A stretch of 64,000 nt of DNA, from contig JABGQM010000003.1 of assembly GCA_018648805.1 (NCBI GenBank), forward strand, positions 1 through 64,000, read 5' to 3'. Below are positions 323-23,934 of the stretch, piece by piece. The notes beneath the pieces were generated by a model. It worked only from the letters and a program-made list of their open reading frames with translations, was not told the origin of the DNA and made no database searches. Source of the stretch: Verrucomicrobiota bacterium (GTDB taxonomy: Bacteria; Verrucomicrobiota; Kiritimatiellia; UBA8416; JABMPJ01). Position 1 is the first letter of the stretch; each line of letters opens with the position of its first letter. Both the position numbers and the translations under genes were made by a program.

Positions 323-3300
323 ATGACGATGGTGTCACAATTGAGCGTTGCGCATTCGTGCCCCCGCTCTGCTTCCTGGCTCTCCCTCCTGCTTTTGCTG
401 GTCTCGGTGGTACTCTGTCAGGCTGAGGTCATCCTCCAGTATTTCAACACCAGTTACCGTGAGCTGGCGCACAAGATGCCTGAGCTGGCCGAGGTGGGGT
501 ACGGCGCCTTGTGGTTGCCTCCGCCCACCAAGGGCAGCGGTGGACTATCGGTCGGGTACGATCTGTGGGATCCGTTTGACTTAGGCGGCAAGGATCAACG
601 CAACACGGTAAGGGTACGCTACGGCACCGAAGCCGAGTTGCTTCACCTCATTCGTGTTGCCCACCGCTTCGGGATCCGTGTCTACTTCGACAACATCATG
701 AACCACCGTGCCTTCGATGTGCCCGGATACAACGAGAATACGTCGATCGGTGTCTATCCCGGCATGCTCCCCGAAGACTTCCATCTGCGTGTGACTGAAG
801 AGGGGTTCTACCGCAAGTGGGATAACATCGCGAATTGGAGCGATACCTGGCAGATCCAGAACCGCAACTTCTCCGACCTGATCGATATAGCCCAAGAATC
901 ACCCGACAATGGCAACTTCGGAACCAGCGAAGGTGACCACATCCCAAAGATCTCCTTTGTGCGTCACCCGAACAACCCCGAGTACTACGATCACCACCCC
1001 ACAAACGGGTGGGTAGGGTTCGGGCATCCGAGCATCACGAAACAGGTCATTGCCGACCATCCCGACTACGAGAAGTATAATGAGGACGTCAACGCCTACC
1101 TGATCCGGGCGGTTCGCTGGTTGGTGGATTACACCAAGGTGGATGGCTTGCGTCTGGATGCGGTGAAGCATGTGCCCGACTATTTCTTCGGCCAGCAGTC
1201 AGGCAACGATAAAGATAACAACGGTGACGGCTATCTGGGGCAGGCGCAGCTACAGTTCAACCGAACGCGCAACTTCAACGATCCCAACCATCGCGACACG
1301 GTTTTCGATACGGAGGCCACCTTCGGTCGCAACGATCTTATGATGTTCGGCGAGCACCTCGGTGAGCCGCCCGGATACAGCGGATACATTGATGCGGGGA
1401 TGCGGCTGGTCGACAGCAAGCTGCACAACTACCTGAACAGCAATCTCGGTTCGATCTGGGGGACGCTGGACGGGCTGCAGTATGCGGGCGGTCAAGGTTT
1501 CAGTGCCGGGGAGGGCGTGCCCTATGCGAAGAGTCATGACGACGACTATGCCACGCGGCCCGAACTGCATTTTGCGCTCAACTTGACGCGTCAGGGGTTG
1601 CCCAACGTCTACACCGACGGCAACTACCAGTCTGAAACACTCGGCGAAAGCGGGGGTGCGTTTCCGCGTCACGCCAACATCAATTTCCTGGGGCAGTGGG
1701 GCGACGGTCGCATCCCCAACCTGATCTACGTCCACGAGCATTTCGCCCGCGGCTGGCAGCAGCCGCGCTGGGGAGATTCCGATGTGTGTGCCTACGAGCG
1801 CGTGGATAAGCGCGAGAACGGGGGCATGTCCGATGCCGATGGCACGGTGCTCTTCTTTGCCATGTGCGACAACTTTTCGAACGGGGAGTATCGTGAGTTC
1901 GATACGAGCTTCCGCCCGGGCGACTATCTCTGGCAGTACTCGACGGGTGGCGGCAACTTCTATTACGAGGTGCCGTGGGACGGCAAGATCAAGGTCACCG
2001 TACCGCCGGGCGGCTATTTCGCCTTCTCGTGGCGCAGCCCCGAGGAGTCGGATCTCTGGAGCGGCGGGGAGTGGAATGCACACCAGGTCGAGATTCGCGA
2101 GAACGGCCAACCCGTGGGCTGGGTCTCCTATGAGCGTCAAGATGGGCCTGATGGCGATCCCGGTTTCAATCCGTACGGCGCGCTTGACCCCGTCTCGACC
2201 GACTTCACGTATCGCTGGTGGGTGCCACGCGTTAGCTCGTCATCAGGTCTGGATTTCATCGTACGCTCCGACGGATCGGCCGAGGATATTCTGCTCAAGC
2301 TCGATGGCGGTGTTGATCTCAACGGCATCGCCCACAGCGGTGGCGACAGGCGCGACCACCCTCCTGGTAACGAGGGGTCAACAGCGGTCTTCGACGGCTA
2401 TGAAAAGATGACCTACAACCAGCGTATCCGCGAGAAATTCGCCGCGGTTGATACGGTGCGTAACATCATCGGTACGCTCGGTGCGGAGACCTACGAGTGC
2501 ACGATCGGATCGTCGGGATTCACAATCACCAACGGTGGCGGTGCGAACAGCAGCGTGGATACGGCAACCACCGTTTACCACGCTCCGGGCACAACCAATG
2601 GACTTGGCTTTGCGCATTTTTACCCGCCGCCCGCGTCGGCTTCCGATGCGCCGATCTACCTCTGGACCGAGATGAAGTACCAGTTCGAGGCCAATAACAT
2701 GTTTGTCTACTATACGACGAACGGCACGAGCTATCCGGAGGGATCAGGCGGCTATGCGCTCACCGATGACACGTTCGTAAGTGAGGTGAACTTCGCTACC
2801 AACGGCACTCATGATGGCACGGGGACGCCCGACTGGTGGACAAATGCCCTTCCTGCGATGCCCTCCGGTACGGTGCTGCGCTACAAGGTCGGCAGCTATC
2901 ATGATGATGCGGGCAGCGTGTTTCCGATTAATGCCGACCAGGTTTACTGGAAGAAGAAGATGGTCACGCAGTTCTCGATCACCAACTTCAACGCGGGCAG
3001 TGTTGAGCTGTACCCCCACATGGACTTCGCGCCGGACACGAAACAGACCGGCCTGGACGAGGGGTTCCACGTCCTGCGGGCTCGTGCTTTTCTGAATCGC
3101 TCCGGCAAGGCGTCGATCTACAACACCTACGTGCAGCCGTTCTACTACGACGCCGTAGCGCCGACGGGTACGGTGGTCTATCCCTCGCAGGGGGACACGC
3201 TGGGTGATAACCAGTATAGCGTGGTGGTTCGCACCGACTGGACCGTGACGGACGTCTACTTCAACATAGAGGATGGACATGCTGCCAATGACGATGGCGC

Positions 3301-6300
3301 AACCGGGCGCGACCTCGGCAACGGCACGAACGCGCTGGGCCAGACGAACTGGGTGGCCGTGTCGGAAGTGGACGCATCCCTCGACCTCAATGGCACCTAT
3401 CCTGATCTCCCGCGCGAGTGGCGCTTCACCTACAGCAACGTCCCGACCCACTCGCCGGCTACGATCCGCGTGAAGCTGGCAGAACTTTCCTCATCGACGA
3501 ACACACTCCTCTCTGACGTCGACGGACGCTTCCGCACACTCGAACGCCAGGTGACGGCCAACGGCCCGGACTTCGGTATGTACGTGGCTTATCCGCAAAA
3601 CGATGGCGATACGGTGGGTGCGGGCTATGTCATGAAGACCTGGTTCAGTCCGGCGTTGTGGACGAGTGAACAGGAGGCCCTTGACCGCTTTCTGATCACG
3701 GTCGACGGCGAAGCGTTGGGGCGGAGTGGCTACGGATTGAATTGGGAGGGCGGTCCCAATGGATGGCATCAGCTAACCAACGCGCTGCCCGATCTCTACA
3801 ATGGTGACGACAACTACCTGCACCATATCGTGGTGACGCACACGAACGCTGTGGGTGCTGGTGTCACCCTCGAAGCCGATCGCTACGTCAAGGCGTGGCC
3901 CACAGTGGTGGGGCCATACATCGATATCGTCACGCCGCCGGAGTTTGACTCAGACGGCAAGAAGTTTGAGATCATTCTGTCCGACAACTGTTCCTCTGGC
4001 TCCACAAGCCGCCAGTACACGGTCAAGGTTGAAACCGACCTCGCCGCGCAGCACGTCTGGCTGGAGTTTCCGAACGATCCTGTCACCGTGACCCCGTATG
4101 GCAGCACCACAAACACGCTCACAGGCACGGTGTCAGTATGGAGCGGGTCGAACCGCGTCGAAGGTGTGGGCATGGCGCTGACAGGAACGGTGTCAGCCGT
4201 CTACAGCAACAGCACGATCACCGGCTCCAACACGTTTTTTACGACCGACCTCGAGGTCGGTAACCGCCTGCTCATCGACAGCAACGTGATGACGGTGGCA
4301 GGCATAACAGACGACACCCACCTCAGGGTCACTCATCCGTATCCGGGGTCCAACACCCACGATGTGGCGACCATGATCCTGCCCGCGTTCGATTCGGAGT
4401 TGAGCGTTGGGTCTATCCTGATGATCGGCTCGCAGGTGATGACGGTCAGAGGTATTCTCTCTTCCTCTAACTGCATCGTCACGCCGACGTACCCGAGCGG
4501 GACGGCGGCAGGGCTGACGGCCTACCGGGTTGATGGCAACCCGCAGACGGTGGGCGATAAGCGTAACTGGCTGTTTCTCTGGGAAGCTATGGAGGCCGGG
4601 AACTACTGGTTCGGCGCCCACAGCAATACCAACGAGGCCAGTGATGCAACGATCACCGCCTCGATCTGGCGCCACACCACCGTGATCTTCCGAGAGAGGG
4701 TCGTAACCAACGCCACGCTCGATTGGGATGATGACGGCCTGTACAACGGGGCCGAGACCATCCCCACCAATCTCCCGCCGACCAACGCGGAGACGTGGGA
4801 GAATGGCGATGTCCATATTTGGCGCGTAAACGGGCGCACCGATCCGCTCCGTCCGGACACCGACGGTGATGGCCTGCCGGATGGACTTGAGAGTGGGTGG
4901 CGTATTGCCGACCTGGGTAAGACCGACACGAACGAGGATACCAATTGCGACGGCTTCGCGAATTTCCTCCCGGACTACGACCCGCCTTTCTTCAACACCG
5001 TGCCGGACAACAATGGGTTGCCGGAGTATGTCTTCCGCGCGTCGCGTACGGATCAGATCCACGGAACCATGACCGACCCGAACAATCCGGACTCGGACTA
5101 CGACGGGTTGCCGGATGGGATCGAGGACGCCAACCGGAACGGGTGGGTGGATGGTGACGGGCTGGCCCTGGCCCCGGGAGCCAACTGGTGGGATGTTCGA
5201 ACGCAGGCGTCTGACTGGCCTGATGGTGAATGGGCTTCGGCCTGGACGGAAACAGATCCCAATAACTCGGACACAGACGGAGACGATGCCGGTGATGGGC
5301 ATGGCGAAGACGTCAACTACAACGGCTGGATCGATGGTGATACAGATTCGAATCGCACGTGGTCGGTGGGAGAGTCCTGGACGGAAACCGACCCTTTGAA
5401 TCCCGATACGGACGGGGATGGATTGCCGGACGGATGGGAGCGTCGCTACCAGTTTGACCCTCTTGACAGTGGCGATACGAACCAGGTGCATATGGAAACC
5501 GGAGCGCCGATCACGGCGCTGGAGCACGGCGCCAGCGGGAATCCTGATGGCGACCTGATCGTGGTAGAGGGCGCGACCAATGCCTACGTGAACTACCTTG
5601 AGCTGCAGAACGGGACGCATCCGCGCCAGGCCGATAGCCTGGATCCGCCGCCCGAGGGCTCCATCATTGTGGGGCCCGGCGCTCCGATCGGTGTGATCAA
5701 CGGGGTCACCAACTACCAGGAGTTCATGGACTGGACCTGGGATGACCTGCTGGTTCTTGACGAGTACGAGGGTGGGGGGAACAACAACCAGCTCGGCGAT
5801 GTTTACAAGGGGTGGGATGGCTGGGATGGGTCGCGCGATATCGTGGCGTTCTATGCCCACGATGGGGGCGACAGCGGTATCCCTACCGGCGACGGAACCT
5901 TCTACTTTCGCGTCGACTTTTACGACCTGCGGGCGCAGGCCGAGGAGGGCAATCTGGATCTCTATATCGTGATCGACACGGGCAACACAGACCAGGGCGA
6001 GAAGGCGCTGCCGGATGATGTGGATGCGGAGACGCGTATGGGATGGGAGGTCGTGGTGGCGGTCTACCAGTCAGGGCAGGGCACCGTCTATGTGGATACG
6101 GATCCATCCAACAACAGCACCACGGTCGCTCAGGATCTTGGCTCATTTGGGGTGGTCGGCCGGGGCCAGGACGCGCCGGACGGCTTCATTGACGCCTACT
6201 ACAATGCCGAGCTCGACGCGATGGAGTGCAGCATCAGCCGCAAGGCGCTGATCGATGCCGGATGGTCGGGCAACGGTGCGAGCAACTTCAGCTACCAGGT

Positions 6301-8992
6301 CTACACCACGAAGGACGGCACGAGCAACAGCCCGGTCGGAGAGGGCGATATCGGTGGCCGCAACGACATCCGGGATTCCATTTATGATGACAAGATTGCC
6401 GAGGACTACTCGTTCGACCAAGGGTCGGTAGAAGATGTGTTCTACGCATGGTTCAAGGGCACCGATCGGACCGGCCGCGCCAAGGTGGCCACGCTGATAC
6501 ATGGCAACCAGGCCATCAAGCCCGGCAACCAGATTCAAGACCTGATCAATACGGGCCAGGGCGCGGGCTATCACCGGCCGGTGGCGGTGCACGCGGTGTT
6601 CCATCAGCCGCTCAACCTGCACATCACGCCCACGCTGGCATCGGCAATCCAGTGGGCCTCAGCCGACCCGGTCGCGGGCAAACCGTGGGCCGATGGCCCG
6701 GCCTTGAATGCGAAGATTGCCGAGCTGATCGACACCAATGTGGTTTATCTCCTCGGCAGTACATTCTCCGATCACATGCTGCCTTACTTCACGTATGACT
6801 ATAACCGTGACAACGAAGCGCTGGCGCGTGAGTACCTCGAGCGGATCTACGACACCACGATCGATACCAGCACGGCGGTGTTTTGGCCGCCCGAGCGGTT
6901 GCTGGACTATGACGTCTTCGCCAAGATCCGCGATATGGGATACCGCTTTACGCTGTGCGACCAGGATACGCATCTCTTCAACTGGATCGGCCGCACCGAG
7001 TCGCTGGTCGAGGGCGCCTACCGCATCAACGAATTCCGCAAGGGTGATGCGCCTGGCGGCTGGGCGGGACGTGCCTTCGTGATCAACAACCTGGCGTCGT
7101 CGTACCGGTTCAACACGACCGACAACGGGCTCGATATCGCGCTGCGTTCCCTGCTGAACCGCAAGGCGCGTAGCGGCGTGAACGACCAGGTGGTGACGCT
7201 GCTGAGTCGCTGGTCCGACTTTACCGACAATGACGATGCCGACGCGTACGACCTGAATATCCGTTGGCTGGCCAACCGGCCATGGACGCCGATCGTGGCG
7301 CTCGAACAGATTACGCGCGGTGAAGTGGAGGCCTCCTGGGGCGCCGAGGGTGGTACGTTCGGTGGCGGATGGTGGGCCGAGTGGCGCGACGAGAACGTGG
7401 CCGTCAGCAATAAGCAGAGCTACAACTGGCTCAACCATGCCACGCAGGAGAACTTCGACAACTGGTACGTCGGGCAGGGCGGCGTTGAGGAAGGCTTGCA
7501 GGATAAGACGTTCGATATACGGTCCGGCACCCCGATGCCGAAGCGTTACGGCATGCTCTATCTCACCAACACCGTTGTGAGGGATGCGTGGGATGCGGTG
7601 GGCAGTATCTCGCAGAGCAACCTCTCAGAGCTGGCGCGTGCCACACTGCACGCCTCCGTGTTCCAGACGGCGTTCCATGACGAGACGAACCACGATACAC
7701 GCCGCTATAGCACAGGCCAGTACCTCTATCCGGCAACGAGTCACAATGGTCTCGCCGCCTTCGCACAGAACGCTCAGTCGCAGAGTCGGTTCGCAGCGGT
7801 ATACAAGCATGTCGACGACTGGAGCGCCCTGGCCGCGTCGGTCACGACACCACAGGCTATGGCGCAGGATGTCGACCTCGATGGCGAGGATGAATACCTC
7901 CTCTACAATGATCGCCTATTTGCCTGTTTCGAGGCCGCTGGCGGCCGTCTGGTTGGTGTCTGGATCAGGGATGTGCTGGATGACTCGATCTATCAGGCAG
8001 TGGGTAACTTTGTCGGGTATTCAGGTACGAATGTCGAGTTTGAGGGTGAGTCCAACGTTTACGATGACGGATCGGTGAAGGCCTATAGGACGTCGGGGTT
8101 GAAAGACTGGTGGGATGGCGGGATGAACTATGTGAATCCTCTCTACACCGTTGCCTCGGTTTCGCAGGGGTGGCAGTTCGCGACCGCGGGCAATGAGATT
8201 ACGAAGGTCGTCACATTGGCCGAGCGATCCCGTAAGCTTGAGGTGGCCTACAGTGTTCCCGGCAAGACTCTGTATGTACGCCACGGCCTCTCTCCTGATC
8301 TGGCCGATCTACTCAAGGATGGGCAGGGCATGCTATCGGTTCAGGACAACGGCGGCGTACTGCGGCTTTCCAACACAAACTACGGGACCACGGTTGAAGC
8401 CCTCATCGGGTATGCCGATGCCGGTCACAGTGCGTCGTGGCAGAGCGGGGCCGAGGACGAAGACACGAACAAGGTTGATTTCCTCACCGTGCCGATGCGC
8501 AACCAGGCCCAGACGCACCAGGTGGAGATCTACGGCAGCAACAGTTTCAGCTTCTCGCTCGGCTTCGATGCGCAGCCCTCCGACTGGGACGGCGACGGCC
8601 TGCCCAACGTCTATGAAGATGGACTCTATTTCCTGAGTTCGTCGAATAGCCTGGACGGTGCCCTGGACAAGGATGGCGATGGGGTGATCAATAGCGATGA
8701 GTGGATCGCGAACACGAGCCCTGATGATATCAACGACTACCTGCATCTGACAGATGCCGAGGGGGTGAGCACCGGCTTTGTAGTGCGTTTCCCGGCCAAG
8801 CCGGATCGCGCCTATGGCATCTCGTATGACAACGATCTGGTCGAGACACCGGGTTGGTCGAACGCCACTCCGGATGCCATCATGGTGCCGACGGCGCAGG
8901 TCTATACCTGGACCGATGACGGCACAACCACCACCCCGCATCCGACCAACACGCCGCAGCGTTTCTACGACGTGCGCGTCAGTTTGCCGTAG
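323..8992 (+). CDS. Giant exported GH13-GH57 alpha-glucan hydrolase
   Basis: Predicted 2,889-residue exported alpha-glucan-degrading enzyme. An N-terminal hydrophobic stretch ending in CQA looks like a signal peptide. Residues about 35-560 form a GH13 alpha-amylase domain with all four conserved regions: FDNIMNH, GLRLDAVKH (nucleophile D279), FGEHL (acid/base E344) and KSHDDD (D406). Beta-rich modules follow, then acidic Ca-binding thrombospondin type 3 repeats (about 1468-1713, DTDGDGLPDG type). Next is a CBM9/glucodextranase-C-like module (about 1787-2033), then a GH57-type domain from about 2040 with HQPL (H2094), a DHMLPYF segment (about 2145) and FWPPER (E2191). A last Ca-binding repeat and a terminal module of about 80 residues end the protein. 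I chose the ATG at 323, preceded by GGAGGG, over an in-frame GTG at 227 because it places the signal peptide at the N terminus. GH13 is certain; GH57 rests on three motifs and domain order. Confidence 0.9.
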   Translation: MTMVSQLSVAHSCPRSASWLSLLLLLVSVVLCQAEVILQYFNTSYRELAHKMPELAEVGYGALWLPPPTKGSGGLSVGYDLWDPFDLGGKDQRNTVRVRYGTEAELLHLIRVAHRFGIRVYFDNIMNHRAFDVPGYNENTSIGVYPGMLPEDFHLRVTEEGFYRKWDNIANWSDTWQIQNRNFSDLIDIAQESPDNGNFGTSEGDHIPKISFVRHPNNPEYYDHHPTNGWVGFGHPSITKQVIADHPDYEKYNEDVNAYLIRAVRWLVDYTKVDGLRLDAVKHVPDYFFGQQSGNDKDNNGDGYLGQAQLQFNRTRNFNDPNHRDTVFDTEATFGRNDLMMFGEHLGEPPGYSGYIDAGMRLVDSKLHNYLNSNLGSIWGTLDGLQYAGGQGFSAGEGVPYAKSHDDDYATRPELHFALNLTRQGLPNVYTDGNYQSETLGESGGAFPRHANINFLGQWGDGRIPNLIYVHEHFARGWQQPRWGDSDVCAYERVDKRENGGMSDADGTVLFFAMCDNFSNGEYREFDTSFRPGDYLWQYSTGGGNFYYEVPWDGKIKVTVPPGGYFAFSWRSPEESDLWSGGEWNAHQVEIRENGQPVGWVSYERQDGPDGDPGFNPYGALDPVSTDFTYRWWVPRVSSSSGLDFIVRSDGSAEDILLKLDGGVDLNGIAHSGGDRRDHPPGNEGSTAVFDGYEKMTYNQRIREKFAAVDTVRNIIGTLGAETYECTIGSSGFTITNGGGANSSVDTATTVYHAPGTTNGLGFAHFYPPPASASDAPIYLWTEMKYQFEANNMFVYYTTNGTSYPEGSGGYALTDDTFVSEVNFATNGTHDGTGTPDWWTNALPAMPSGTVLRYKVGSYHDDAGSVFPINADQVYWKKKMVTQFSITNFNAGSVELYPHMDFAPDTKQTGLDEGFHVLRARAFLNRSGKASIYNTYVQPFYYDAVAPTGTVVYPSQGDTLGDNQYSVVVRTDWTVTDVYFNIEDGHAANDDGATGRDLGNGTNALGQTNWVAVSEVDASLDLNGTYPDLPREWRFTYSNVPTHSPATIRVKLAELSSSTNTLLSDVDGRFRTLERQVTANGPDFGMYVAYPQNDGDTVGAGYVMKTWFSPALWTSEQEALDRFLITVDGEALGRSGYGLNWEGGPNGWHQLTNALPDLYNGDDNYLHHIVVTHTNAVGAGVTLEADRYVKAWPTVVGPYIDIVTPPEFDSDGKKFEIILSDNCSSGSTSRQYTVKVETDLAAQHVWLEFPNDPVTVTPYGSTTNTLTGTVSVWSGSNRVEGVGMALTGTVSAVYSNSTITGSNTFFTTDLEVGNRLLIDSNVMTVAGITDDTHLRVTHPYPGSNTHDVATMILPAFDSELSVGSILMIGSQVMTVRGILSSSNCIVTPTYPSGTAAGLTAYRVDGNPQTVGDKRNWLFLWEAMEAGNYWFGAHSNTNEASDATITASIWRHTTVIFRERVVTNATLDWDDDGLYNGAETIPTNLPPTNAETWENGDVHIWRVNGRTDPLRPDTDGDGLPDGLESGWRIADLGKTDTNEDTNCDGFANFLPDYDPPFFNTVPDNNGLPEYVFRASRTDQIHGTMTDPNNPDSDYDGLPDGIEDANRNGWVDGDGLALAPGANWWDVRTQASDWPDGEWASAWTETDPNNSDTDGDDAGDGHGEDVNYNGWIDGDTDSNRTWSVGESWTETDPLNPDTDGDGLPDGWERRYQFDPLDSGDTNQVHMETGAPITALEHGASGNPDGDLIVVEGATNAYVNYLELQNGTHPRQADSLDPPPEGSIIVGPGAPIGVINGVTNYQEFMDWTWDDLLVLDEYEGGGNNNQLGDVYKGWDGWDGSRDIVAFYAHDGGDSGIPTGDGTFYFRVDFYDLRAQAEEGNLDLYIVIDTGNTDQGEKALPDDVDAETRMGWEVVVAVYQSGQGTVYVDTDPSNNSTTVAQDLGSFGVVGRGQDAPDGFIDAYYNAELDAMECSISRKALIDAGWSGNGASNFSYQVYTTKDGTSNSPVGEGDIGGRNDIRDSIYDDKIAEDYSFDQGSVEDVFYAWFKGTDRTGRAKVATLIHGNQAIKPGNQIQDLINTGQGAGYHRPVAVHAVFHQPLNLHITPTLASAIQWASADPVAGKPWADGPALNAKIAELIDTNVVYLLGSTFSDHMLPYFTYDYNRDNEALAREYLERIYDTTIDTSTAVFWPPERLLDYDVFAKIRDMGYRFTLCDQDTHLFNWIGRTESLVEGAYRINEFRKGDAPGGWAGRAFVINNLASSYRFNTTDNGLDIALRSLLNRKARSGVNDQVVTLLSRWSDFTDNDDADAYDLNIRWLANRPWTPIVALEQITRGEVEASWGAEGGTFGGGWWAEWRDENVAVSNKQSYNWLNHATQENFDNWYVGQGGVEEGLQDKTFDIRSGTPMPKRYGMLYLTNTVVRDAWDAVGSISQSNLSELARATLHASVFQTAFHDETNHDTRRYSTGQYLYPATSHNGLAAFAQNAQSQSRFAAVYKHVDDWSALAASVTTPQAMAQDVDLDGEDEYLLYNDRLFACFEAAGGRLVGVWIRDVLDDSIYQAVGNFVGYSGTNVEFEGESNVYDDGSVKAYRTSGLKDWWDGGMNYVNPLYTVASVSQGWQFATAGNEITKVVTLAERSRKLEVAYSVPGKTLYVRHGLSPDLADLLKDGQGMLSVQDNGGVLRLSNTNYGTTVEALIGYADAGHSASWQSGAEDEDTNKVDFLTVPMRNQAQTHQVEIYGSNSFSFSLGFDAQPSDWDGDGLPNVYEDGLYFLSSSNSLDGALDKDGDGVINSDEWIANTSPDDINDYLHLTDAEGVSTGFVVRFPAKPDRAYGISYDNDLVETPGWSNATPDAIMVPTAQVYTWTDDGTTTTPHPTNTPQRFYDVRVSLP

Positions 8993-9141: not shown

Positions 9142-9624
9142 ATGATGGGCAAAAGGATAACCACGTTGGCGGTGCTTTTCGGCATGGCCATTGGGACGGG
9201 TGCCTTTACCTTCAAGTATGCCGAAGGGTTCTCCTATTTCAGCAAGGCACCCAAGGCCTGCGTCAACTGCCACATCATGACCCCCCAGTACGACTCGTGG
9301 CAGAAGTCGAGTCACCACGGGGCGGCGACCTGCGTCGACTGTCACCTGCCGCATGCGTTTGTCCCCAAGTACATCGCCAAGGCGGAGAACGGCTACCATC
9401 ACTCCAAAGGGTTCACCTTGGAGGATTTTCACGAGCCGATCATGATCAAGGATAAGAATCACCGTATTTTGCAGGAGAACTGTGTCGCCTGTCACGAGGA
9501 CATGGTTTATGAGCTATTTCGCCGGGATATGACCCATCCGGATGCGGTTAGCTGCATGCATTGCCATGCCGGCGTGGGGCACGGGTCACTGCCGACCAGC
9601 ATTGGCGGTCCGGACAAAGAGTAA
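9142..9624 (+). CDS. nrfH: Cytochrome c nitrite reductase small subunit NrfH
   Basis: Membrane-anchored tetraheme quinol dehydrogenase of the NapC/NirT family that passes electrons from menaquinol to NrfA. An N-terminal hydrophobic helix (about residues 7-24) acts as an uncleaved anchor. Four CxxCH heme motifs follow in order: CVNCH, CVDCH, CVACH and CMHCH. The length of 160 residues is normal for NrfH. Two ATG codons lie in tandem after a CGGGGGATGG stretch; either 9142 or 9145 may be used. nrfA begins 20 bases downstream, so the pair forms an operon. Confidence 0.93.
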
Positions 9625-9643
9625 ATAAGCGAGGAGAGTGTGT

Positions 9644-11077
9644 ATGAGCATGTCTAGCAAGAAGTCGGTGGGTGTGGTTGCCTTTGTCGTTACAACCGTT
9701 GCGGTTGCCGCGGGAACCGCTGCTGTATGTGCACTGCTGATCAATATATTCGAGCGCAAGCGTGAGGCCGAGAATACCTACGTCCGCCTGGTGCCGGTTA
9801 CCGAAGATACCACCGATCCTGCTATCTGGGGCAAGAACTGGCCGCGGCAGTATGATTCCTACCAGCGCACGGTCCTCGCCACGCGCACACGCTTTGGTGG
9901 ACACGGCGGCAGTGAAGCGCTTCCGGAAGCGAAGATCGAGCGCGATCCCTGGTTGAAGCGTATGTTCCTGGGGTACGCCTTCTCGATCGACTACCGCGAT
10001 CGGCGCGGCCATGCCTACATGCTGGAGGACCAGGAGCAGACCAAGCGGCAGAATGTGCCGCTCTCGGGATCCTGCCTGCACTGTCACGCCTCGATCATGC
10101 CGCTCTATCGCAAGTTGGGTGACGGGGATGCCGCCAAGGGCATGGATGAGACGCACAAGATGTCCTACAAGGACACCAACAAGATGCTCCATGAAATGGG
10201 GCTTGGCCACCCGGTATCGTGCGTGGACTGCCATGACCCGGAGAGTATGGAAGTGCGTGTGACACGCCCCGGCTTTATCCGCGGAATCCAGGATCTGGCG
10301 GCATCGGACGCCCCGGTTCCCGCCGTTCCTTCTATCGCTATATGGCGTCAGGGCTCCCGCGCTAAACCGTATGATCCGAACAAGGATGCGACACGAGGCG
10401 AGATGCGCTCCTTCGCCTGTGCTCAGTGCCATGTGGAGTACTACTGTGCAGGAGGCTTTCCGCTCACGTTCCCGTGGAAGAACGGTCTGAAGATGGAAGA
10501 CCTGGAGAAGCAGTGGGACGAGACTGTTATGAAGGATGGCTCCCGCTTCTACGACTACAAGCACAAGGAGTCCGGGGCCGAAATTCTCAAGGCCCAGCAT
10601 CCCGAGTTCGAGTTGTGGAGCCAGGGCATTCATGCGCGCAGTGGTGTTTCCTGTTCCGACTGTCACATGCCATACATGCGTGATGGTGCCTCCAAGGTCT
10701 CGGACCACTGGGTTCGCAGCCCGCTGCTGAATGTGAATCGCGCCTGCCAGACCTGTCACCATGTCGCGGAGAAGGAGCTTCTGGCGCGGGTCGATTCGAT
10801 CCAGCAGAAGAACGCCGACCTGCTTCAGGCGGGTGGTGCAGCCCTGATGGATCTGCTGGATGCCGTGGCCGAGGCCAAGGCCGCCGGCGCCACGCAAGCG
10901 CAACTCAAGCCGGCGCTGGAGTTCCAGCGCAAGGCCCAGTGGCGGCTGGACTACATTGCGGCCGAAAACTCGATGGGGTTCCATGCTCCGCAGGAGGCGG
11001 CGCGTATCCTCGCCGAATCGACAGACTATGCCCGTCAGGGGCAGGTGGCAGCGCTCCGAATAGCACATCAGCTCTGA
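9644..11077 (+). CDS. nrfA: Pentaheme ammonia-forming nitrite reductase NrfA, CxxCH type
   Basis: Catalytic subunit reducing nitrite to ammonium in the periplasm. The 477-residue protein starts with a signal-anchor-like helix. It carries five heme sites: CLHCH (C144), CVDCH (C193), CAQCH (C259), CSDCH (C337) and CQTCH (C368). The QCHVEYY and [10 protein letters not shown]...GIHARSG segments match the calcium-site and active-site regions of NrfA. The first heme, normally CxxCK with lysine as axial ligand, is CxxCH here; such variants are known, for example in Campylobacter. The ATG at 9644 follows GAGGAG by seven bases, so I prefer it to the in-frame GTG six bases upstream. Confidence 0.94.
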
Positions 11078-11158: not shown

Positions 11159-12685
11159 ATGCATCCAAAACGACAAAGCGGAATCCTGATGCACCCGACC
11201 AGTCTGCCGGGGCCGCAGGGCATTGGCGACATCGGGCCGGCGGCACGCGCGTTTGTGGACGACCTCGTCCAGATGGGACAGCATACGTGGCAGATCCTGC
11301 CGCTGGGCCCCACCGGCTATGGTGATTCGCCCTACCAGTCACTCTCGACGTTTGCGGGCAACCCGATCCTGATCAGCTTGGATGACCTGGTGACAGATGG
11401 GCTGCTTGACCACCGGCGCCTGGACTCCCTGGCGGCCTTTGGCGAGGGACCGGTCGACTACGCCTCCGTGATCTCGGCGCGCCTAGCGGTGCTGGAGACG
11501 GTCTGCCGCACCTTCCATCGCCGGGCCTCGGACGAGCTGTATGGCGCCTTTGAGGCCTACTGTATCAAGCAGGGCCGCTGGCTGGATGACTACGCGCTTT
11601 TCGCGGCGATCAAAGAGTCGCATGCCGGCCAGCCATGGGTGCGCTGGGACCGCCGGCTGGCGCAGCGTGAGCCGGATGCACTGTATGAGGCGGAGATGGC
11701 GCTGGCCACGGCGATCCGCAACGTCAAGATCCAGCAGTTTCTCTTCGAGCGCCAGTGGCACGCCTTGCGGGTACGCTGTCACCGCCGGCACATTCAGATC
11801 GTAGGCGACGTGCCGATCTTCGTGGCCCACGACAGCGCGGATGTATGGGCGCACCCGGCCCTGTTTACGCTGGACGAGAGTGGCCACCTCGCCGCGCAGT
11901 CGGGCGTGCCGCCCGACTATTTCAGCAAGACAGGGCAGCTGTGGGGCAATCCGCTCTATCGCTGGGATGTGCATGAAGAGACCGGTTACGCCTGGTGGAT
12001 TGCCCGCATGCGGCGTGCTCTTGAGCTGGCGGATGTGGTGCGGATCGATCATTTCCGCGGGTTTGAAGCGCATTGGGAGGTGCCCCGCCTGGCCCGCACG
12101 GCGGCGGGGGGACGCTGGGTCAAGGGGCCGGGCAAACAGATCTTTGTAGCCCTGATTGCCGACATAGGCACGCTGCCTGTCATTGCCGAGGATCTCGGGG
12201 TGATTACGGATGAAGTCGACGCGCTGCGCGACATGTTCAGCTTCCCCGGCATGTGTATTCTGCAGTTTGCGTTCGGCGAAGATCCCAAGGCGGCGGACTA
12301 CCGGCCCGATCATCTGCCGGTCAACTGTGTGGCCTATACCGGTACGCATGACAACGATACGACTGTCGGCTGGTTCCACGGCGAGCCGGGCAAGGCCGAT
12401 ACGCGCTCGGCCGCTGCGGTGCGCGAGGAGCGTAAAGCCATCCTGAAGTATCTCGATACAGACGGCCGTGAGATTCACTGGGACCTGATCCAGATGGGAC
12501 TGAAGTCGCGCGCGGCGCTGTGCATCGTTCCTATGCAGGATCTGCTGGGACTGGGCTCGGAGGGGCGCATGAATCTACCGGGAACCGACAGCGGCAACTG
12601 GCAGTGGCGGCTGCGTCCGGGCGAGCTAACCCCGGCCATCAAACAGCGCATGCGCCACCTGGTCGAAACGACGCGCCGCCTCTGA
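11159..12685 (+). CDS. malQ: 4-alpha-glucanotransferase (GH77)
   Basis: Cytoplasmic disproportionating enzyme (amylomaltase) that transfers alpha-1,4-glucan segments between maltodextrins and releases glucose. The 508-residue length is typical of the short bacterial and plant type. Family landmarks include the N-terminal GILMHPTSLPG, GDVPIFVAHDSADVWA, RIDHFRGF (nucleophile D297), AEDLG (acid/base E344) and GTHDNDTT (D398 as third acid). No signal peptide is present. The gene lies between nrfA and the second giant amylase and fits intracellular handling of imported maltodextrins. The start is fixed by the conserved N terminus rather than by a ribosome binding site. Confidence 0.95.
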   Translation: MHPKRQSGILMHPTSLPGPQGIGDIGPAARAFVDDLVQMGQHTWQILPLGPTGYGDSPYQSLSTFAGNPILISLDDLVTDGLLDHRRLDSLAAFGEGPVDYASVISARLAVLETVCRTFHRRASDELYGAFEAYCIKQGRWLDDYALFAAIKESHAGQPWVRWDRRLAQREPDALYEAEMALATAIRNVKIQQFLFERQWHALRVRCHRRHIQIVGDVPIFVAHDSADVWAHPALFTLDESGHLAAQSGVPPDYFSKTGQLWGNPLYRWDVHEETGYAWWIARMRRALELADVVRIDHFRGFEAHWEVPRLARTAAGGRWVKGPGKQIFVALIADIGTLPVIAEDLGVITDEVDALRDMFSFPGMCILQFAFGEDPKAADYRPDHLPVNCVAYTGTHDNDTTVGWFHGEPGKADTRSAAAVREERKAILKYLDTDGREIHWDLIQMGLKSRAALCIVPMQDLLGLGSEGRMNLPGTDSGNWQWRLRPGELTPAIKQRMRHLVETTRRL

Positions 12686-18700: not shown

Positions 18701-19434
18701 CACAGGATGTCGTGTTTGCCTTCGCAAACAATCACTATTGGGATCAAGCCTACAGCAATGACGTCTCGGCACTCTTCGAGGTGGATAAGGACTTTGGCTC
18801 TGAGAACTGGTTCGGGATCGATGGGACACACAGCTACAACGTCGTTGACCTGCTCTCCACCAATCCATCGTCCTACCTCTGGGGAACCCCCAAGACCGGG
18901 CAGACGATCTTCGATGATGGCCTGTATGTGCGACTGCAGGAATCCCCCACGATGGGTAGCCAGGCCCAGTACATCAAGCTGGTCGACCTGACGGATGCCG
19001 GTCCCGGCGACAGTGACATGGATGGTTTGAACGACTGGCAGGATCCGGACGACGACAACGACGGTCTGCCCGACAGCTACGAGATCGCCAACGGCCTTAA
19101 TCCGACCAATGCCACCGGGCTATACGGTTGGGACGGCGACAAGGATGGGGACACGATCTCGAACGGCGAAGAGATGATAGCCGGCACCGATCCAGACGAG
19201 ATTGCGGACTATCTCCGACTTACGGGAGTGGCCACGAATCCTGTGGGTGCGACGGTAACGTGGCGCAGTGTTTCGGATATCAACTACACGGTGGAGCATT
19301 CCGACAACCTGCTGGTGTCAAACGGCTGGGTCGCAGACGGGTCGCTTACGGCGGTCTCGTCCAACCAGGTGCTGGACGTCGCATTGCCCTCGCAGGTATC
19401 CAATCGCTTCTGGCGCGTAAAGGTGGTTGAATAG
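12751..19434 (+). CDS. Giant exported protein with two GH13 catalytic domains
   Basis: Predicted 2,227-residue exported alpha-glucan hydrolase or transferase. A signal peptide ends near PAPA/E27. GH13 domain 1 (about 27-500) resembles the N-terminal domain of the first giant (shared PPPTK region) and has PDIVMNH, GLRLDAGKH (D262), FAEIL (E317) and GHDEG (D391). Beta modules and Ca-binding DSDGDGLPD repeats (about 917-1003) follow, then a starch-binding-like region. A second GH13 unit (about 1340-1970) opens with a VELFSNINRRDFA beta module and has DGTFNH, GLRCDFAQG (D1730), MAESL (E1759) and SSHDEV (D1844). Both triads are complete. Ca-binding repeats and a terminal module end the protein. 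The ATG at 12751 is six bases past GGGGG; the in-frame ATG at 12745 abuts that sequence and is less likely. Any open frame upstream of here overlaps malQ out of frame. Confidence 0.92.
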   Translation: MRYGFCFIGVLLLALTLAILAPVPAPAEVMLQWFESEWDEVYRRLPEVAEIGYDYMWIPPPTKSPTGKGTIWANVGYNLYDRFDIGDVPQRGSLATRYGTRGSLENMVKKAHQMDVKIIPDIVMNHNGNGPDFREYPGMKAEDFHVTWHESYVNTLNYNRARRMDQWDPKSGYGGTLWQELAQLIDIRTEDHDLNTDRYRFSGDKWIEGHNFNFVAGGAYTRHPGQYEKYPDAYGDELAADMLYRWIVWLGNAIDYDGLRLDAGKHVPYEFFGYEGSGFLHEAHENYTQRRGVSDDGINQLFDNYLSERDDALIFAEILSPWNDFRDGDEQGCAWWFDDNNAGNDRNPMRFLDYAMKKHAGARFNGDLNGLGAVGSDFGANNGITYVWGHDEGPPGRANLAYAYILTHIGMPMVYFTGSNIKWENFGRNAYDPNNPNLNKTWMIPGHDSQALGDVYGDISNLVWIHQNFAWGAEHKLYENHGDYFALERYDDADSNGRDAGDAIMVMALNDSGGDIGRDVETSFEEGTVLKDYAGNNLSDATVGAGGWVHVTVPGTAEQQNWVCYAPYNISPVGVTFSSPLSGGVTNIDWIVPGGAHAADKTNSYTRIVDTNFAVTVTLPGGKPAGDVLLKWGQGKVNLAGNTHHTNRNDHRLGNFEQLDYMSDTEWKMDVTITDDNIPEGLNVVKVRVFNSRDDNLYPQLFNTVTKTVYVDRRGPELEIQSPAAGEMIYGDAVMLISNPDYTAFEIDVTANGVTHQALEVMKGLWKCELKGLPTGPQLVTVTAREADWDEPRKMINQSVYTRSITVGTAATIGLVVDGGNASVELPFFTNTVSAPGASDVRLYWDGYRLPFNAGSLTNLFNGQVVFDGDPLRVETQRLWGAFVNAEHFFEAVRIDGAITSRAVARVTFNLYGNNHIDSDGDGLPDTVEMPYFNEGAPGPDQAWPGDDNDFIPEPWETWTRLNPYNHATFYTGEWDDQGDFDGDEVTNGDEVRAGYHATGNIYQYSIYDPNSKPAGSVTTPSEVTWGPQVAARGGILSITNRPNQGPLDGESPIHIHVGHSFRTQPEWQDVTNYLMTASGNEWIYDHLVPSNATSVDFVFRNAAGTLWDNNNQNNWQVLVAGDTNRYFDMDGGFDGAFDGAFTVFPGGTGLMRIDAAVRGENLYVATVGAGGNTDDHFVLVSDELGDAHGAPWAKAGVVFFDTATKPFLAGNAESNYQAWHNIAGGWKGNFYPGALEGEINLVDVFGYVPEAVYVAALAYGKEDSNALSRQGPYAWDSGGNVDIMEFLRLPVASITDEDADGYFDAGKPQLWTAVGGDTNDANYGLRRFFIDETAGETADLTVILKPHVGLSNSVSHVELFSNINRRDFAVMEEDPDTVYAASLDRYYRAYPMTYDAGSDTWRYTITIKQCGAYRLSARYKVNGSGDYTYYTDSGLRRDCAVVVSPRKALQLTMYEMNPMFIEATNDNFYGRSTFGDLHTVNVDRPDRVNTSYFSDLGVNMIWLQPMHPIGADGKQIDPATDDYYDPGSPYAVQNYWKVNSVLGDPSNPTNAMQEFLAFVAAMDSSGVGVMLDGTFNHSAWDCEIGVKGVEMGITTNATDLIRDVRPAWYSKRDAYGAHATYYQPNGESDIAVAPDRIDFGKWTDAADFNFGRYDALVQEAAGNTNDAWSSSWNKRFLLEEDRFEGHDDATRELWSYFAAYPLYWLEKTGHPQGTPKSESYRGIDGLRCDFAQGLPSAFWEYCINKTRQTKWDFVFMAESLDGYTEVAGSKRHGVGYRSARHFDVLNENLVFYWRNEFFNYPHDGCAPGKVNYAPKTSETRQALDDRRDAYDASPVLLNLSSHDEVYPSHDPWRLFYAYVQLAAVDGVPMILYGQELGAQNDHDRYHCGDASSWIPDASHNFAHYELNFGKSIPNFKRFNHMMNIWDNATDELVEAYQRVNNARLSSPALKSQGVYFLEQKGDGYDDEIFAVAKFEQAGVSAATQDVVFAFANNHYWDQAYSNDVSALFEVDKDFGSENWFGIDGTHSYNVVDLLSTNPSSYLWGTPKTGQTIFDDGLYVRLQESPTMGSQAQYIKLVDLTDAGPGDSDMDGLNDWQDPDDDNDGLPDSYEIANGLNPTNATGLYGWDGDKDGDTISNGEEMIAGTDPDEIADYLRLTGVATNPVGATVTWRSVSDINYTVEHSDNLLVSNGWVADGSLTAVSSNQVLDVALPSQVSNRFWRVKVVE

Positions 19435-19465
19435 GGCCGCGCTACGAGGGTGGGGTGTAGGAACG

Positions 19466-22432
19466 ATGCGAAAGCAGAAAGAACCGTCCAGGCTAATACC
19501 CGCAGGCGCGCTGTTGCTCTTTGTGGTGACCGTGGGGATGTTCTTGCTCGTCATGCAGGCCCGGCGGCCAGCCGCCCCTGCCGTGACTCCCGCCCCGGGG
19601 CGCGACGCTCCGGCGGCGCCCGGGATCTATCGTCCCGGACGTGAACCGGTCCTGGGCCTCGACGTGCGCGCACAGCCCGGTGTGACCCCCACCACGCTTC
19701 TGCATTACCGGCAACGCGGTGTGACCAACGTCCTCATCGCCGGTTCATGGGATGGGTGGCAGCGCAAGTATCCGCTCACGCGACGGGGTGATCTCTGGGT
19801 CGCCGATGTCACGGTCCTCGGCCTGACTCTGGGCCGCTATGAATACAAGTTCATTCCCGACGGACAGTGGGAGCCGGGGGAGAATCGCCTGCTGTTTGTT
19901 AACAAGGAGGGACGCTTGCAACGACCACGTGATGTTATCTTCGCGGCGCGCATGGAGCGCAGCGATCGGATTGATATCTACTTCAGTAGGCCCCTGCGCG
20001 ATAGCGCCACGGTCCGTGCCCAACTCGTACCCGAGTGCCCCATCCGTGAGATCACCTGGGGGCAGGGCAAGGATGGGCGTGAACTGCTTGGCTATGCCGT
20101 GGCGGGCGACCATGTCACGTTCTGTCTGTCAGAGGAGACTTATGGTGTCCGACTCGAAGCGGGCGATCGGGTCAACGTGGCCGGGAGTTTCAACGGCTGG
20201 ACCTCGACGGCCGAAGGCTGGGCGCTGACACGTGTCAAGGGCACGCGGCTGTGGGAAGGCACGTTCTCCGTGGCAGGAGTGGGGACGCCCCCCGCTAACG
20301 ACCTGCCGACCTTCAAGTTTGTGATCAATGGCGCGCGCTGGCTTGATCCACCTCTCCTGGCCCCCAACGCCGAGTCGGATGGGGAGGGGCATGTCAACAT
20401 GGTGATCGACCCTTCGCTCTCTTCCTGTCCTGTGCTGCATATCCACACGCATGGCCCGCTCGACCTGAGCGCGGGGTACACCGTCGTGGTCGAGAGTGAT
20501 GACGAACGTCCCGCCTACGCCGTGGTCACACCGGGCGCCGCCCTGGATCGCGTCAGTTCCACACGTCCACTCGGGGCTCTGCTGGATCGCACCGGCAAGC
20601 GCACCGGGTTCCGCCTCTTTGCGCCGCGCGCGCAGGAGGTGGCGCTCTGCCTCTACGATGGACCCGAATACGAGGCCCCGGGTCGGGCCGGCGGGTTCCT
20701 CGAACCGGCCGAACGACACGCCATGACCCTCAACGGTGGAGACGGCGTGTGGGAGGTGTGGCTGGACGGGCTGCGTGTGGGCGCCTATTACAGTTATCGC
20801 GTCGACGGTGCCCAAGGCAGCGGCGACGGGTTCAATGCGGCCGTGCCGATCGGCGACCCCTATGCCCGCGCCGTGGCGCACGAAGGGGCCAATAGCATGG
20901 TCATGGATCCGACGGCCGGCCAGGCGTGGTTCAAGGGATGGACCGATAGTGCGTGGCGCACCCCCGCCTGGAGTGAGGCGGTGATTTATGAGACGCACGT
21001 GCGCGACCTGACAAGCCACCGCTCTTCCGGTGTGGCGGCTGGGCTGCGCGGCAGCTATGCCGGCTTGCTGGCATCCGAGGGTACCGGGTGCGGGCTCGAT
21101 CACCTCAAGGCACTCGGCATCAACATGATTGAGCTCATGCCGGTGCATGAGTTTCAGAACGGCACCACCCATCACGGCTGGGGCTACTCGCCCGTCTTCT
21201 TCTTTGCCCCGGAATCGTCGTATGCGCAGGATCCGCTCAAGGGCTCGCAATACTACGAGTTCAAGCACCTGGTCAACCAGCTGCACAACCGCGGCTTCGG
21301 GGTGATCCTGGATGTGGTCTACAACCATGTCGGTGCGCCCAACGTTTTCAGCCTGATTGATAACAAGTACTACTTCCGCATGGATCACAGGTTCCAGTAC
21401 AGCAACTTCAGCGGCTGCGGCAACGACGTGCGCAGTGAAGGACCCATGGTGCGGCGCCTCCTGATCGACAACGTGCTCTACTGGATGAAGGAGCATCACG
21501 TCGACGGATTCCGCTTCGACCTCGCCGAGTTGATCGACATGGACACGCTCATCGCCATTCGTGACGAGGCGCGCAAGGTGAATCCCCATGTGCTGCTCAT
21601 CTCCGAACCGTGGAGTTTCCGCGGCGACCACAAGATGGCCTTGAAAGGCAGGGGCTGGGCCGCCTGGAACAACCAGTTTCGGGATGCCGTGAGGCACTAT
21701 GTCCGCGGCGACGGCGATCGTGAAGAGGTCAAGGCGGCCGTTCGTGGTTCGGTCGATTCTTTCGCCGCCACGCCATTGCAGTCGGTCAACTACGTGGAAA
21801 GCCACGACGACATGTGTCTGGCTGACGAACTGACGACGGATCCAAAGAAAGACGGGCGCAACCTGTCGGAGCTCGATGCGCGCCGCAACCGTTTGGCCGC
21901 GACGGTTCTTTTTACCTCGCTCGGTATCCCCATGATCAGCGAGGGACAGGAATTCATTCGCAGCAAGCGCGGCCTGCACAACACCTATGACAAGGGTGAC
22001 GCCATCAACCAGCTGCGTTGGGACGACCGCAAGCGGCCTGCCGCCGCCCAGACGCTGCGTTACTACCGTGACCTGGTGGCGCTACGGCGCAGTCGGACGG
22101 GCCGCGCCCTGCGCTGGGCCACGGCTGTGCCGGATGACTACATCGACTGGATTGAGCCGGCCAACAGGCAGGCCCTCGGGTACTCGATCAATGTAAACGG
22201 TCGCTATCCCGGCGGGCGGCTCGTCGTTCTGGTGAACGCGGCGAAAAGGGCGGTGAGCTTTGCGGTGCGTTTTCCCAAGACCGACTGGAAGCAGGTCGGG
22301 GATGGCGCGACCATAGAGATGAACGGAATCATGAGCACGACGGGAGGCCCGCGTGTGTTCTCCCCGGGCTCCTACCGGGTTAAGGTGCCCGCCCAGACGG
22401 CGTTTCTGTTTGTGGGGGGGGTGACACCATGA
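19466..22432 (+). CDS. Membrane-anchored pullulanase/glycogen-debranching-type GH13 enzyme with CBM48-like modules
   Basis: Predicted debranching enzyme acting on alpha-1,6 branches in the periplasm. The 988-residue protein has an N-terminal hydrophobic segment (about 14-30) followed by a Pro/Ala-rich linker, so it is anchored rather than cleaved at an obvious site. Two AMPK/CBM48-like glycogen-binding modules are visible (AGSWDGW near 93; AGSFNGW near 240), then an isoamylase-type N domain. The GH13 barrel has VILDVVYNHVG, GFRFDLAEL (D685), ISEPW (E714) and VESHDD (D781). The HHGWGYSP segment stands where pullulanases carry YNWGYDP. The ATG at 19466 lies 31 bases after the preceding stop. 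The stop overlaps the next gene by ATGA, indicating translational coupling. Confidence 0.9.
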   Translation: MRKQKEPSRLIPAGALLLFVVTVGMFLLVMQARRPAAPAVTPAPGRDAPAAPGIYRPGREPVLGLDVRAQPGVTPTTLLHYRQRGVTNVLIAGSWDGWQRKYPLTRRGDLWVADVTVLGLTLGRYEYKFIPDGQWEPGENRLLFVNKEGRLQRPRDVIFAARMERSDRIDIYFSRPLRDSATVRAQLVPECPIREITWGQGKDGRELLGYAVAGDHVTFCLSEETYGVRLEAGDRVNVAGSFNGWTSTAEGWALTRVKGTRLWEGTFSVAGVGTPPANDLPTFKFVINGARWLDPPLLAPNAESDGEGHVNMVIDPSLSSCPVLHIHTHGPLDLSAGYTVVVESDDERPAYAVVTPGAALDRVSSTRPLGALLDRTGKRTGFRLFAPRAQEVALCLYDGPEYEAPGRAGGFLEPAERHAMTLNGGDGVWEVWLDGLRVGAYYSYRVDGAQGSGDGFNAAVPIGDPYARAVAHEGANSMVMDPTAGQAWFKGWTDSAWRTPAWSEAVIYETHVRDLTSHRSSGVAAGLRGSYAGLLASEGTGCGLDHLKALGINMIELMPVHEFQNGTTHHGWGYSPVFFFAPESSYAQDPLKGSQYYEFKHLVNQLHNRGFGVILDVVYNHVGAPNVFSLIDNKYYFRMDHRFQYSNFSGCGNDVRSEGPMVRRLLIDNVLYWMKEHHVDGFRFDLAELIDMDTLIAIRDEARKVNPHVLLISEPWSFRGDHKMALKGRGWAAWNNQFRDAVRHYVRGDGDREEVKAAVRGSVDSFAATPLQSVNYVESHDDMCLADELTTDPKKDGRNLSELDARRNRLAATVLFTSLGIPMISEGQEFIRSKRGLHNTYDKGDAINQLRWDDRKRPAAAQTLRYYRDLVALRRSRTGRALRWATAVPDDYIDWIEPANRQALGYSINVNGRYPGGRLVVLVNAAKRAVSFAVRFPKTDWKQVGDGATIEMNGIMSTTGGPRVFSPGSYRVKVPAQTAFLFVGGVTP

Positions 22433-23934
22433 AGGACTGGATTGCCGATGCCGTGATTTATCAGGTCAACCTGCGGGCGTTCGCCGCGCGCGAGCCGCGC
22501 AACCCGCTGGAGGCACGGGCGGAGATGCAGGCGGGGCAGGGGGCGGTCTCGCCGTTGACATTTCTTGCGCAGCATCTCTCGCATATCAAAGACCTCGGGG
22601 CCAACGTGGTCTACCTGATGCCGCCGTTCCCCATGGGGATTGAGGGCCGCAAGGGCGTCGGGTCGAATTACTCTATTCGCGATTTCCAGGCCATTGATCC
22701 TGAATACGGGGTTCTGGAGGAGTTCGTGGTTCTGGTTGAACGGGTCCACAAAGCTGGCCTGCACATCATTCTGGACCTGACGCCCAACCACACCAGTCGC
22801 GACAACGTCTGGGCCGCCACGCCGGGCATTCACTGTCGCGACGCGGACGGGAGCCTCACCTACGACTTCGATTGGTCCGATACGGCCAAGCTGGATTACA
22901 CCAATCCCAAGACGCGGGAGGCTATGCATGCGGTCCTCTCTTTCTGGCTGGATGTGTGCGGGGGCGATGGTGTGGATGGATTCCGCTTCGACATGGCGCA
23001 CATGATCAACGATCTCTCGTTCTGGGATGAAGTACTGCCCGACTTGCGGAGCCGTCACGCGGAACGTGACCTGCTCTTCCTGGCCGAGTGCTACGGGGTC
23101 GAGCGCAACCGCGACCTCTTCGCACGCGGCATGAACGCGGCCTACGATGATGATTTCTATAAGGTGTGCCAGTATGGCTATGCGCGAGATGATGACGGGG
23201 CGAGTCGGATCTGCTTGAGCAAGGAGGCCTTTGGCAACGCCGATTTCAGTGCCAAGGCCGAAGCCTTCTCCGCACACGGCATCGCGGGGGCCTTTGAGCG
23301 GACCTTGATGGATTACGGGGAAGGCACGGCGTGCGGCGACGGGCCGTGGGTGGCGCGCTATAGTGATAACCATGACGAAGGGCGCGGTCGCTACCGCTTT
23401 GGTGATGGGGCCGTGCAGGCCGTCTCCCGCTTGATCTTTCTCGCGGGGCATAGCCTGCCGTTTCTGCTGTGTGGCCAGGAGTTTGGCGCCATCAACCGTC
23501 CGACCATTCATGACCGCCTCAAGCCGTGCGACAAAGGCTACCGCGTGTGTGGCACCGACTGCGAGCAGTGTGACGCCGTGGCGGGGGTTGAGTTTGAGGG
23601 CAATCTCTTTGCGCGCACGGCCGGCGAACGCGCGCGGTGGTTCAACCTCTACCGCGAGTTGATCGCGCTGCGCGCGGCCCACGCCGCGTTGCGGCGTGGT
23701 ACGACCGTCCTGCTGGATGTCGGCGAGGCGTGTCCGCAGCACCAGCGCACCGTCGTGGCCTTTGAACGCGAGCTGAATGGCATCACGCTCTGTTGTGCGG
23801 TCAACATGGGCCCCCAGGCCCGCACGCTCAAGAACGTGTCAGCGCTGAAGGGCGAGACGCTCTACGGCCGGCTCGACGGCGGCACCCTCAATCCCTTTGA
23901 GGCAGTGGTTACGCAGCTGACTTCTGGTTCCTGA
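22429..23934 (+). CDS. Cytoplasmic GH13 alpha-amylase-family enzyme
   Basis: 501-residue GH13 enzyme without signal peptide, so it probably acts on imported maltodextrins. The barrel begins at once (DAVIYQVNLRAF). Conserved regions are DLTPNHTS, GFRFDMAHM (nucleophile D188), LAECYG (E220) and SDNHDEG (D316). An unusual cysteine cluster, CX6CX3CX2C (C367, C374, C378, C381), lies after the barrel's GQEFGA segment, where related enzymes usually carry a substrate-binding loop. Exact specificity (amylase, maltogenic, glucosyltransferase) cannot be read from the sequence. The start overlaps the stop of the debranching enzyme gene (ATGA). Confidence 0.88.
   Translation: MKDWIADAVIYQVNLRAFAAREPRNPLEARAEMQAGQGAVSPLTFLAQHLSHIKDLGANVVYLMPPFPMGIEGRKGVGSNYSIRDFQAIDPEYGVLEEFVVLVERVHKAGLHIILDLTPNHTSRDNVWAATPGIHCRDADGSLTYDFDWSDTAKLDYTNPKTREAMHAVLSFWLDVCGGDGVDGFRFDMAHMINDLSFWDEVLPDLRSRHAERDLLFLAECYGVERNRDLFARGMNAAYDDDFYKVCQYGYARDDDGASRICLSKEAFGNADFSAKAEAFSAHGIAGAFERTLMDYGEGTACGDGPWVARYSDNHDEGRGRYRFGDGAVQAVSRLIFLAGHSLPFLLCGQEFGAINRPTIHDRLKPCDKGYRVCGTDCEQCDAVAGVEFEGNLFARTAGERARWFNLYRELIALRAAHAALRRGTTVLLDVGEACPQHQRTVVAFERELNGITLCCAVNMGPQARTLKNVSALKGETLYGRLDGGTLNPFEAVVTQLTSGS

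Follow-up and report, generated by a model that had tools for sequence, protein, structure and literature searches.

The gene at 323-8992 of the window (the whole 64,000-nucleotide stretch of DNA that was analysed) encodes a 2,889-residue protein, P0001, which is best explained as a GH13 amylase carrying a probably non-hydrolytic, GH57-like barrel that probably binds glucan, within a cluster of alpha-glucan genes (probability about 0.6). Sequence and structure model together suggest that the barrel keeps its GH57 shape and is without one of the two catalytic residues. It is taken to be non-hydrolytic, and likely to bind glucan, because the aspartate of CSR-4 is lost although the fold and the nucleophile are kept.

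The open frame of P0001 reaches back beyond the start codon listed in Table 1 to a GTG at 227, and 227/323-8992 contains no internal stop. The first-pass annotation had described a single secreted chain with GH13 and GH57 domains, and this is borne out by the one open frame, the hydrophobic N-terminus and Pfam matches above cut-off for both families. From its sequence, P0001 would be a secreted multidomain starch-digesting protein with an alpha-glucan as substrate.

Table 1. Features of P0001 and of the neighbouring genes (positions are those of the window; fractions are aligned proteins or domains with the same residue).
Feature	Residues	Position	Strand	Basis or remark
Whole gene, P0001	1-2889	323..8992	+	Stop codon included; ATG at 323, GGAG-type sequence upstream
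Signal-peptide-like N-terminus	1-34	323..424	+	Sequence; relatives have hydrophobic N-termini ahead of AEV/AEAMLQ.F start
GH13 domain (GH13_5 / liquefying alpha-amylase type)	34-580	422..2062	+	Pfam, NCBIfam and PDB profile matches
GH13 nucleophile (RLDA)	D279	1157..1159	+	32/32
GH13 acid/base (FGEH)	E344	1352..1354	+	32/32
GH13 transition-state stabiliser (SHD)	D406	1538..1540	+	32/32
Tandem beta-sandwich (Ig-like) modules	580-1255	2060..4087	+	Kept in relatives; no CBM family recognised
Poorly conserved insert	about 1280-1400	4160..4522	+	Missing in most relatives; gap fraction about 0.5-0.7
Acidic DxDxDG stretches, calcium-binding TSP3-repeat-like	about 1516-1760	4868..5602	+	Sequence; PF18884 21.2 bits, below cut-off of 25
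Beta-sandwich module ahead of barrel	1766-2040	5618..6442	+	Structure model; no family matched
GH57-fold barrel domain	2050-2480	6470..7762	+	Pfam, profile, structure model, Foldseek
CSR-1 counterpart, HGNQ	2060-2063	6500..6511	+	End of beta-1; H 37/37, N 36/37, Q 32/37
HQP of the first-pass annotation	2094-2096	6602..6610	+	Unconserved
Nucleophile counterpart, CSR-3 (WPPER), beta-4	E2191	6893..6895	+	37/37; aligned stretch in T. litoralis WLTERVW
Position of general acid/base Asp of CSR-4	R2296	7208..7210	+	Last residue of beta-7; alignments, model
Beta-rich domain after barrel	about 2510-2740	7850..8542	+	Glucanotransferase C-terminal-domain-like (DVDLDGE.EYLLYNDR); model strands
C-terminal module	about 2745-2889	8555..8989	+	Common to many other proteins of the phylum; many partial matches to query 860-1010
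NrfH and NrfA (ammonia-forming nitrite reductase)		9142-11077		Downstream of P0001 gene
MalQ, GH77 4-alpha-glucanotransferase		11159..12685	+	
P0002, second giant, 2,304 aa		12520..19434	+	GH13_5-type domain and second GH13-like domain near C-terminus
Type I pullulanase-like (PulA-like) GH13 with CBM48		19427..22432	+	
GH13 enzyme with DUF3459 C-terminal domain		22429..23934	+	

Starch-binding modules were considered for the middle region of P0001 and rejected, as only generic Ig-like folds and sub-threshold matches were found there; no recognised starch-binding module was detected in the protein. The CBM9/glucodextranase-like module reported earlier ahead of the GH57 region was not recovered either. 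Pfam gave no such match at that place even at E ≤ 10, the only hit being a sub-threshold Laminin_G_3, though a beta-sandwich is predicted there.

The fusion is widespread in the phylum. When the C-terminal 1,010 residues of P0001 were searched against 388 genomes of the phylum, 37 genomes gave a strong match (E below 1e-150), seven of these being outside its own class. GH13 and GH57 stood in one frame, in the same order, at 34 loci, with lengths of 2,593-3,383 residues (one of the 34, L069, is partly masked in its N-terminal region, which makes the length of its frame uninformative). End-to-end alignment showed conservation over nearly the whole length except for the leader and the insert at about residues 1280-1400. 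Pairwise distances for the GH13 and GH57 parts are correlated (Mantel r 0.75; none of 2000 permutations as high), as expected if the fusion has been inherited as one unit. P0001 comes from a 138-contig draft, which could raise the thought that the joined frame is an artefact of assembly or gene fusion in a single genome, but with the same architecture at 34 loci, similar lengths, near-complete conservation and strong matches in 37 genomes this was ruled out and its probability is negligible. Outside the phylum, a plasmid search for relatives gave no match, and a genome scan with short peptide patterns returned close relatives only.

Several other proteins were encountered in these searches. 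One locus (L048, G265:C56) encodes two GH13-GH57 giants in tandem, of 3,228 and 2,882 residues, which are 45-49% identical to the C-terminal region of P0001. Standalone relatives of the GH57-type region, 1.1-1.2 kaa long and without GH13, occur at four loci (L065:5117-8572, L066:1-3309, L067:6128-9832 and L068:5716-9135). Genomes with a GH13-GH57 giant commonly also encode members of another, distinct family (L109-L119, L121 and L124; for example, L110:935-4828:-), 1.1-1.6 kaa long, which has secreted-type N-termini and motifs of the HxHQP and FWPPE types and in which no CSR-4 was located. A candidate GH57 on contig C98 of the source genome (19.8 bits, under cut-off) was rejected, since by eye the frame resembles a polysaccharide deacetylase. 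An apparent open frame of 26,627 residues in G163:C61 results from masking, 72 kb of N having been taken for open sequence.

The GH13 half of P0001 should be an active alpha-amylase, judging from its sequence. PF00128 matches residues 50-348 (E 1.3e-12; 48.2 bits against a cut-off of 22), and the nearest NCBIfam group is the PRK09441 alpha-amylases (E 8.7e-34), at a score far below the equivalog cut-off (117 against 516 bits). A profile of the family compared with PDB identified the liquefying alpha-amylases 3bc9 (E 2e-37), 4uzu and 1bli. The full catalytic set claimed previously (D279, E344 and D406) is present and is invariant across the 32 aligned domains.

For the C-terminal part, PF03065 matches residues 2130-2222 at 22.5-24.8 bits, barely above its cut-off of 21.2, and the GH57 profile matched 34 of the 37 family members at E ≤ 0.1. 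An AlphaFold model of residues 1766-2660, built with 37 sequences (mean pLDDT 86, pTM 0.87), has seven barrel strands: beta-1 (2054-2061), beta-2 (2097-2101), beta-3 (2141-2143), beta-4 (2186-2187, followed by E2191), beta-5 (2209-2213), beta-6 (2249-2254) and beta-7 (2290-2296). The incomplete (beta/alpha)7 barrel of the GH57 type is thus present in the model, and Foldseek matches to GH57 structures agree with it. The best solved match is the 4-alpha-glucanotransferase of T. litoralis (1k1x, E 2e-17); others are the S. marinus amylopullulanase, the Thermus branching enzyme and the Aquifex amylopullulanase. By sequence profile, the match to the T. litoralis enzyme is weak (E 0.027) and lies at the nucleophile stretch and the C-terminal domain. 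Similarly, the domain after the barrel matches 1k1w 380-419 weakly, and AmyA-gluTrfs_C under cut-off (E 0.15).

The conserved motifs of the barrel are only partly those proposed earlier. The WPPE-type motif is real and its glutamate never varies. The HQP at 2094-2096, cited as a GH57 motif, is among the least conserved places in the domain (of 37 sequences, one has the H, six the Q and 27 the P) and was rejected as CSR-1. The canonical CSR-1 HQP is absent from the barrel, where HGNQ stands at the end of beta-1 instead.

Catalysis in GH57 depends on a glutamate at beta-4 and an aspartate at beta-7 (PMC6037648). It had been expected that the (beta/alpha)7 barrel of P0001 would hold both acidic residues; the barrel itself is supported by the model and by matches to solved GH57 structures, but the acid pair is broken, E2191 being kept and R2296 standing in place of the aspartate. 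The CSR-4 aspartate is replaced in 30 of the 37 fused proteins, the column reading N in 13, D in seven, M in seven, R in three, G in two and H, A, S, Q and L in one each. This column ranks at the 85th percentile for variability within the domain, where E2191, H2060, D2213, H2217 and H2452 are all invariant. R2192 is also invariant (37/37) and forms a Glu-Arg pair with E2191. P0001 additionally lacks the glutamate two residues on from R2296, having S2298; D2299 lies in a column that is D or E in 34 of 37.

The CSR-4 column was set from ordinary GH57 amylases (FMDYETFG against LLSRWSDF in P0001) and from the standalone relatives (FDDWEAF). As the profile comparison with the ordinary amylases was global, had a probability of 36% and used an amylase alignment that contained two unrelated frames, the assignment also leans on the standalone relatives and on the placing of R2296 at the end of beta-7 by the model. 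All four standalone relatives have Asp at the acid/base column, yet Pfam does not call them GH57. In a pattern search, where rows with no match are not evidence of loss, DYETFG or DAELFG was intact in amylases and branching enzymes of the ordinary GH57 kind from the same class. The fused proteins that bear Asp, among them those of L050 and L051, fall in a single subtree of ten; their distribution needs no more than three state changes in a quick tree whose root and direction are unsettled.

Whether the barrel is an enzyme at all has to be weighed against these residues. If both domains were catalytic, GH13 acting on alpha-1,4 bonds and GH57, like an amylopullulanase, on alpha-1,4/1,6 bonds, P0001 would be one bifunctional chain. 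The Pfam match above cut-off, found again through most of the family, the invariant nucleophile and the amylopullulanases among the solved-structure matches all speak for such an enzyme, but it is quite unlikely, given an arginine rather than an acid/base aspartate at the end of beta-7, in a column under no constraint, an HQP that is not a motif, a nearest solved fold that is a glucanotransferase and not an amylopullulanase, and a dedicated PulA-like gene in the cluster. The earlier suggestion of a single chain acting on linear as well as branch linkages is unwarranted, because one of the two acidic residues of GH57 is missing; the GH57 half is probably non-hydrolytic and nothing in it specifies activity on branch linkages.

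Rather unlikely, too, is catalysis by a changed mechanism, in which an acid at another position (D2150 of the beta-3 loop, D2299, or E2298 in those proteins that have it) would assist E2191, or the barrel would be a slow glucan transferase using activated chains. Such a mechanism would suit the invariance of E2191, R2192, H2060, D2213, H2217 and H2452 in all 37 proteins, the acidic residue at 2299 in 34 of them and the Asp at 2296 in one subtree, but no single alternative acid is established in position, and 2298 is Ser in P0001. It is doubtful that across much of the phylum a GH57 barrel fused to GH13 works without the canonical Asp, by relocated acid or as a transferase; if it did, each such chain would contain two retaining active sites, the one in the Asp-less barrel having unusual chemistry. 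The preferred reading, a barrel that binds glucan and does not hydrolyse it, has its own difficulties: the E2191-R2192 pair is more strictly kept than pure binding needs, seven fused proteins of one subtree have Asp at 2296, no starch-binding module was recognised in P0001, and D2299 could serve as an acid, although as part of a strand it should point away.

The genes downstream of P0001 fit extracellular use of starch or glycogen. They include malQ, a pullulanase-like gene and a further GH13 gene, together with P0002, which resembles P0001 in its secreted-type start, GH13_5-type first domain, long beta-rich middle and second glycosidase domain near the C-terminus. Unlike that of P0001, this second domain is GH13-like and not GH57, with the D/E/HD set kept at 1807, 1837 and 1920-1921. 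A P0002-like gene starts 4-8 bp downstream of the GH13-GH57 gene at two other loci (L053 and L054) and 1.3 kb after it at a third (L052); at four more (L050, L051, L055 and L059) it adjoins on the same strand, the stop-to-stop frames overlapping slightly. A pullulanase-like gene is nearby on the same strand at L043 (upstream) and at L063 and L071 (downstream), and on the opposite strand at the standalone-GH57 locus L065. For debranching in the cluster, the PulA-like GH13 encoded by its own gene (19427-22432) is a better candidate than P0001. The genes for NrfH and NrfA interrupt the series of alpha-glucan genes, separating malQ from the GH13-GH57 gene.

With the barrel as a binding domain, the N-terminal GH13_5-type barrel would cleave alpha-1,4-glucan internally, through the standard retaining mechanism with its D/E/D triad. 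The beta-sandwich and TSP3-like spacers would carry the C-terminal GH57-fold barrel, which, with its nucleophile Glu and pocket residues kept, most likely binds glucan chains and presents or threads them to the GH13 site. Malto-oligosaccharides would next be processed by MalQ, the pullulanase-like GH13 and the other GH13 enzymes encoded nearby.

Literature on GH13-GH57 fusions, on multicatalytic GH13/GH57 proteins and on GH57 in Kiritimatiellota, mostly from outside subscription journals, gave no description of this fusion. Here two unrelated amylase families have been fused and kept together over a long divergence, and one of them seems to have changed from an enzyme into an accessory domain. 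An annotation pipeline would label P0001 as bifunctional GH13+GH57, and a check of CSR-4 indicates that this may be wrong for a phylum-wide group. The natural series of residues at one site (D, N, M, R and others) offers a way to test which functions such a barrel retains once its general acid is gone.

Among known systems, the GH13 half is closest to the GH13_5-type liquefying amylases (the PRK09441 group; AmyB 3bc9, Geobacillus 4uzu and B. licheniformis 1bli), with which it shares the triad and the N-terminal barrel half; unlike them, it sits inside a giant protein with added modules. GH57 amylopullulanases carry both catalytic residues. Those of S. marinus (SmApu, 7e1y) and Aquifex (9jlq) have the same barrel fold as P0001, in which the catalytic pair is absent; the Aquifex entries among the Foldseek matches include E256 and D352 mutants. 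Both catalytic residues together with the CSR fingerprint, the mark of an amylopullulanase, are not found in P0001, which lacks the acid/base and has a glucanotransferase as its best fold match.

The T. litoralis 4-alpha-glucanotransferase (1k1w, 1k1x) has the barrel and the C-terminal beta domain in common with P0001; its WLTERVW aligns with FWPPERLL and its DVDFDGRAE with DVDLDGEDE. P0001 differs in having no acid/base Asp, in being fused and, as predicted, secreted, and in sharing only about 12% identity with it. GH57 'like' proteins, such as the 4-alpha-glucanotransferase-like group, have the family fold but lack one catalytic residue or both; they are described as very unlikely to be typical GH57 enzymes and, in the groups listed, are 443-728 residues long (Martinovicova and Janecek 2018, PMC6037648). 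With its missing catalytic residue and nearest fold in the T. litoralis enzyme, the barrel of P0001 would belong with these 'like' proteins; it differs from them in being the C-terminal part of a putatively secreted protein of 2.9 kaa, fused behind a GH13 amylase.
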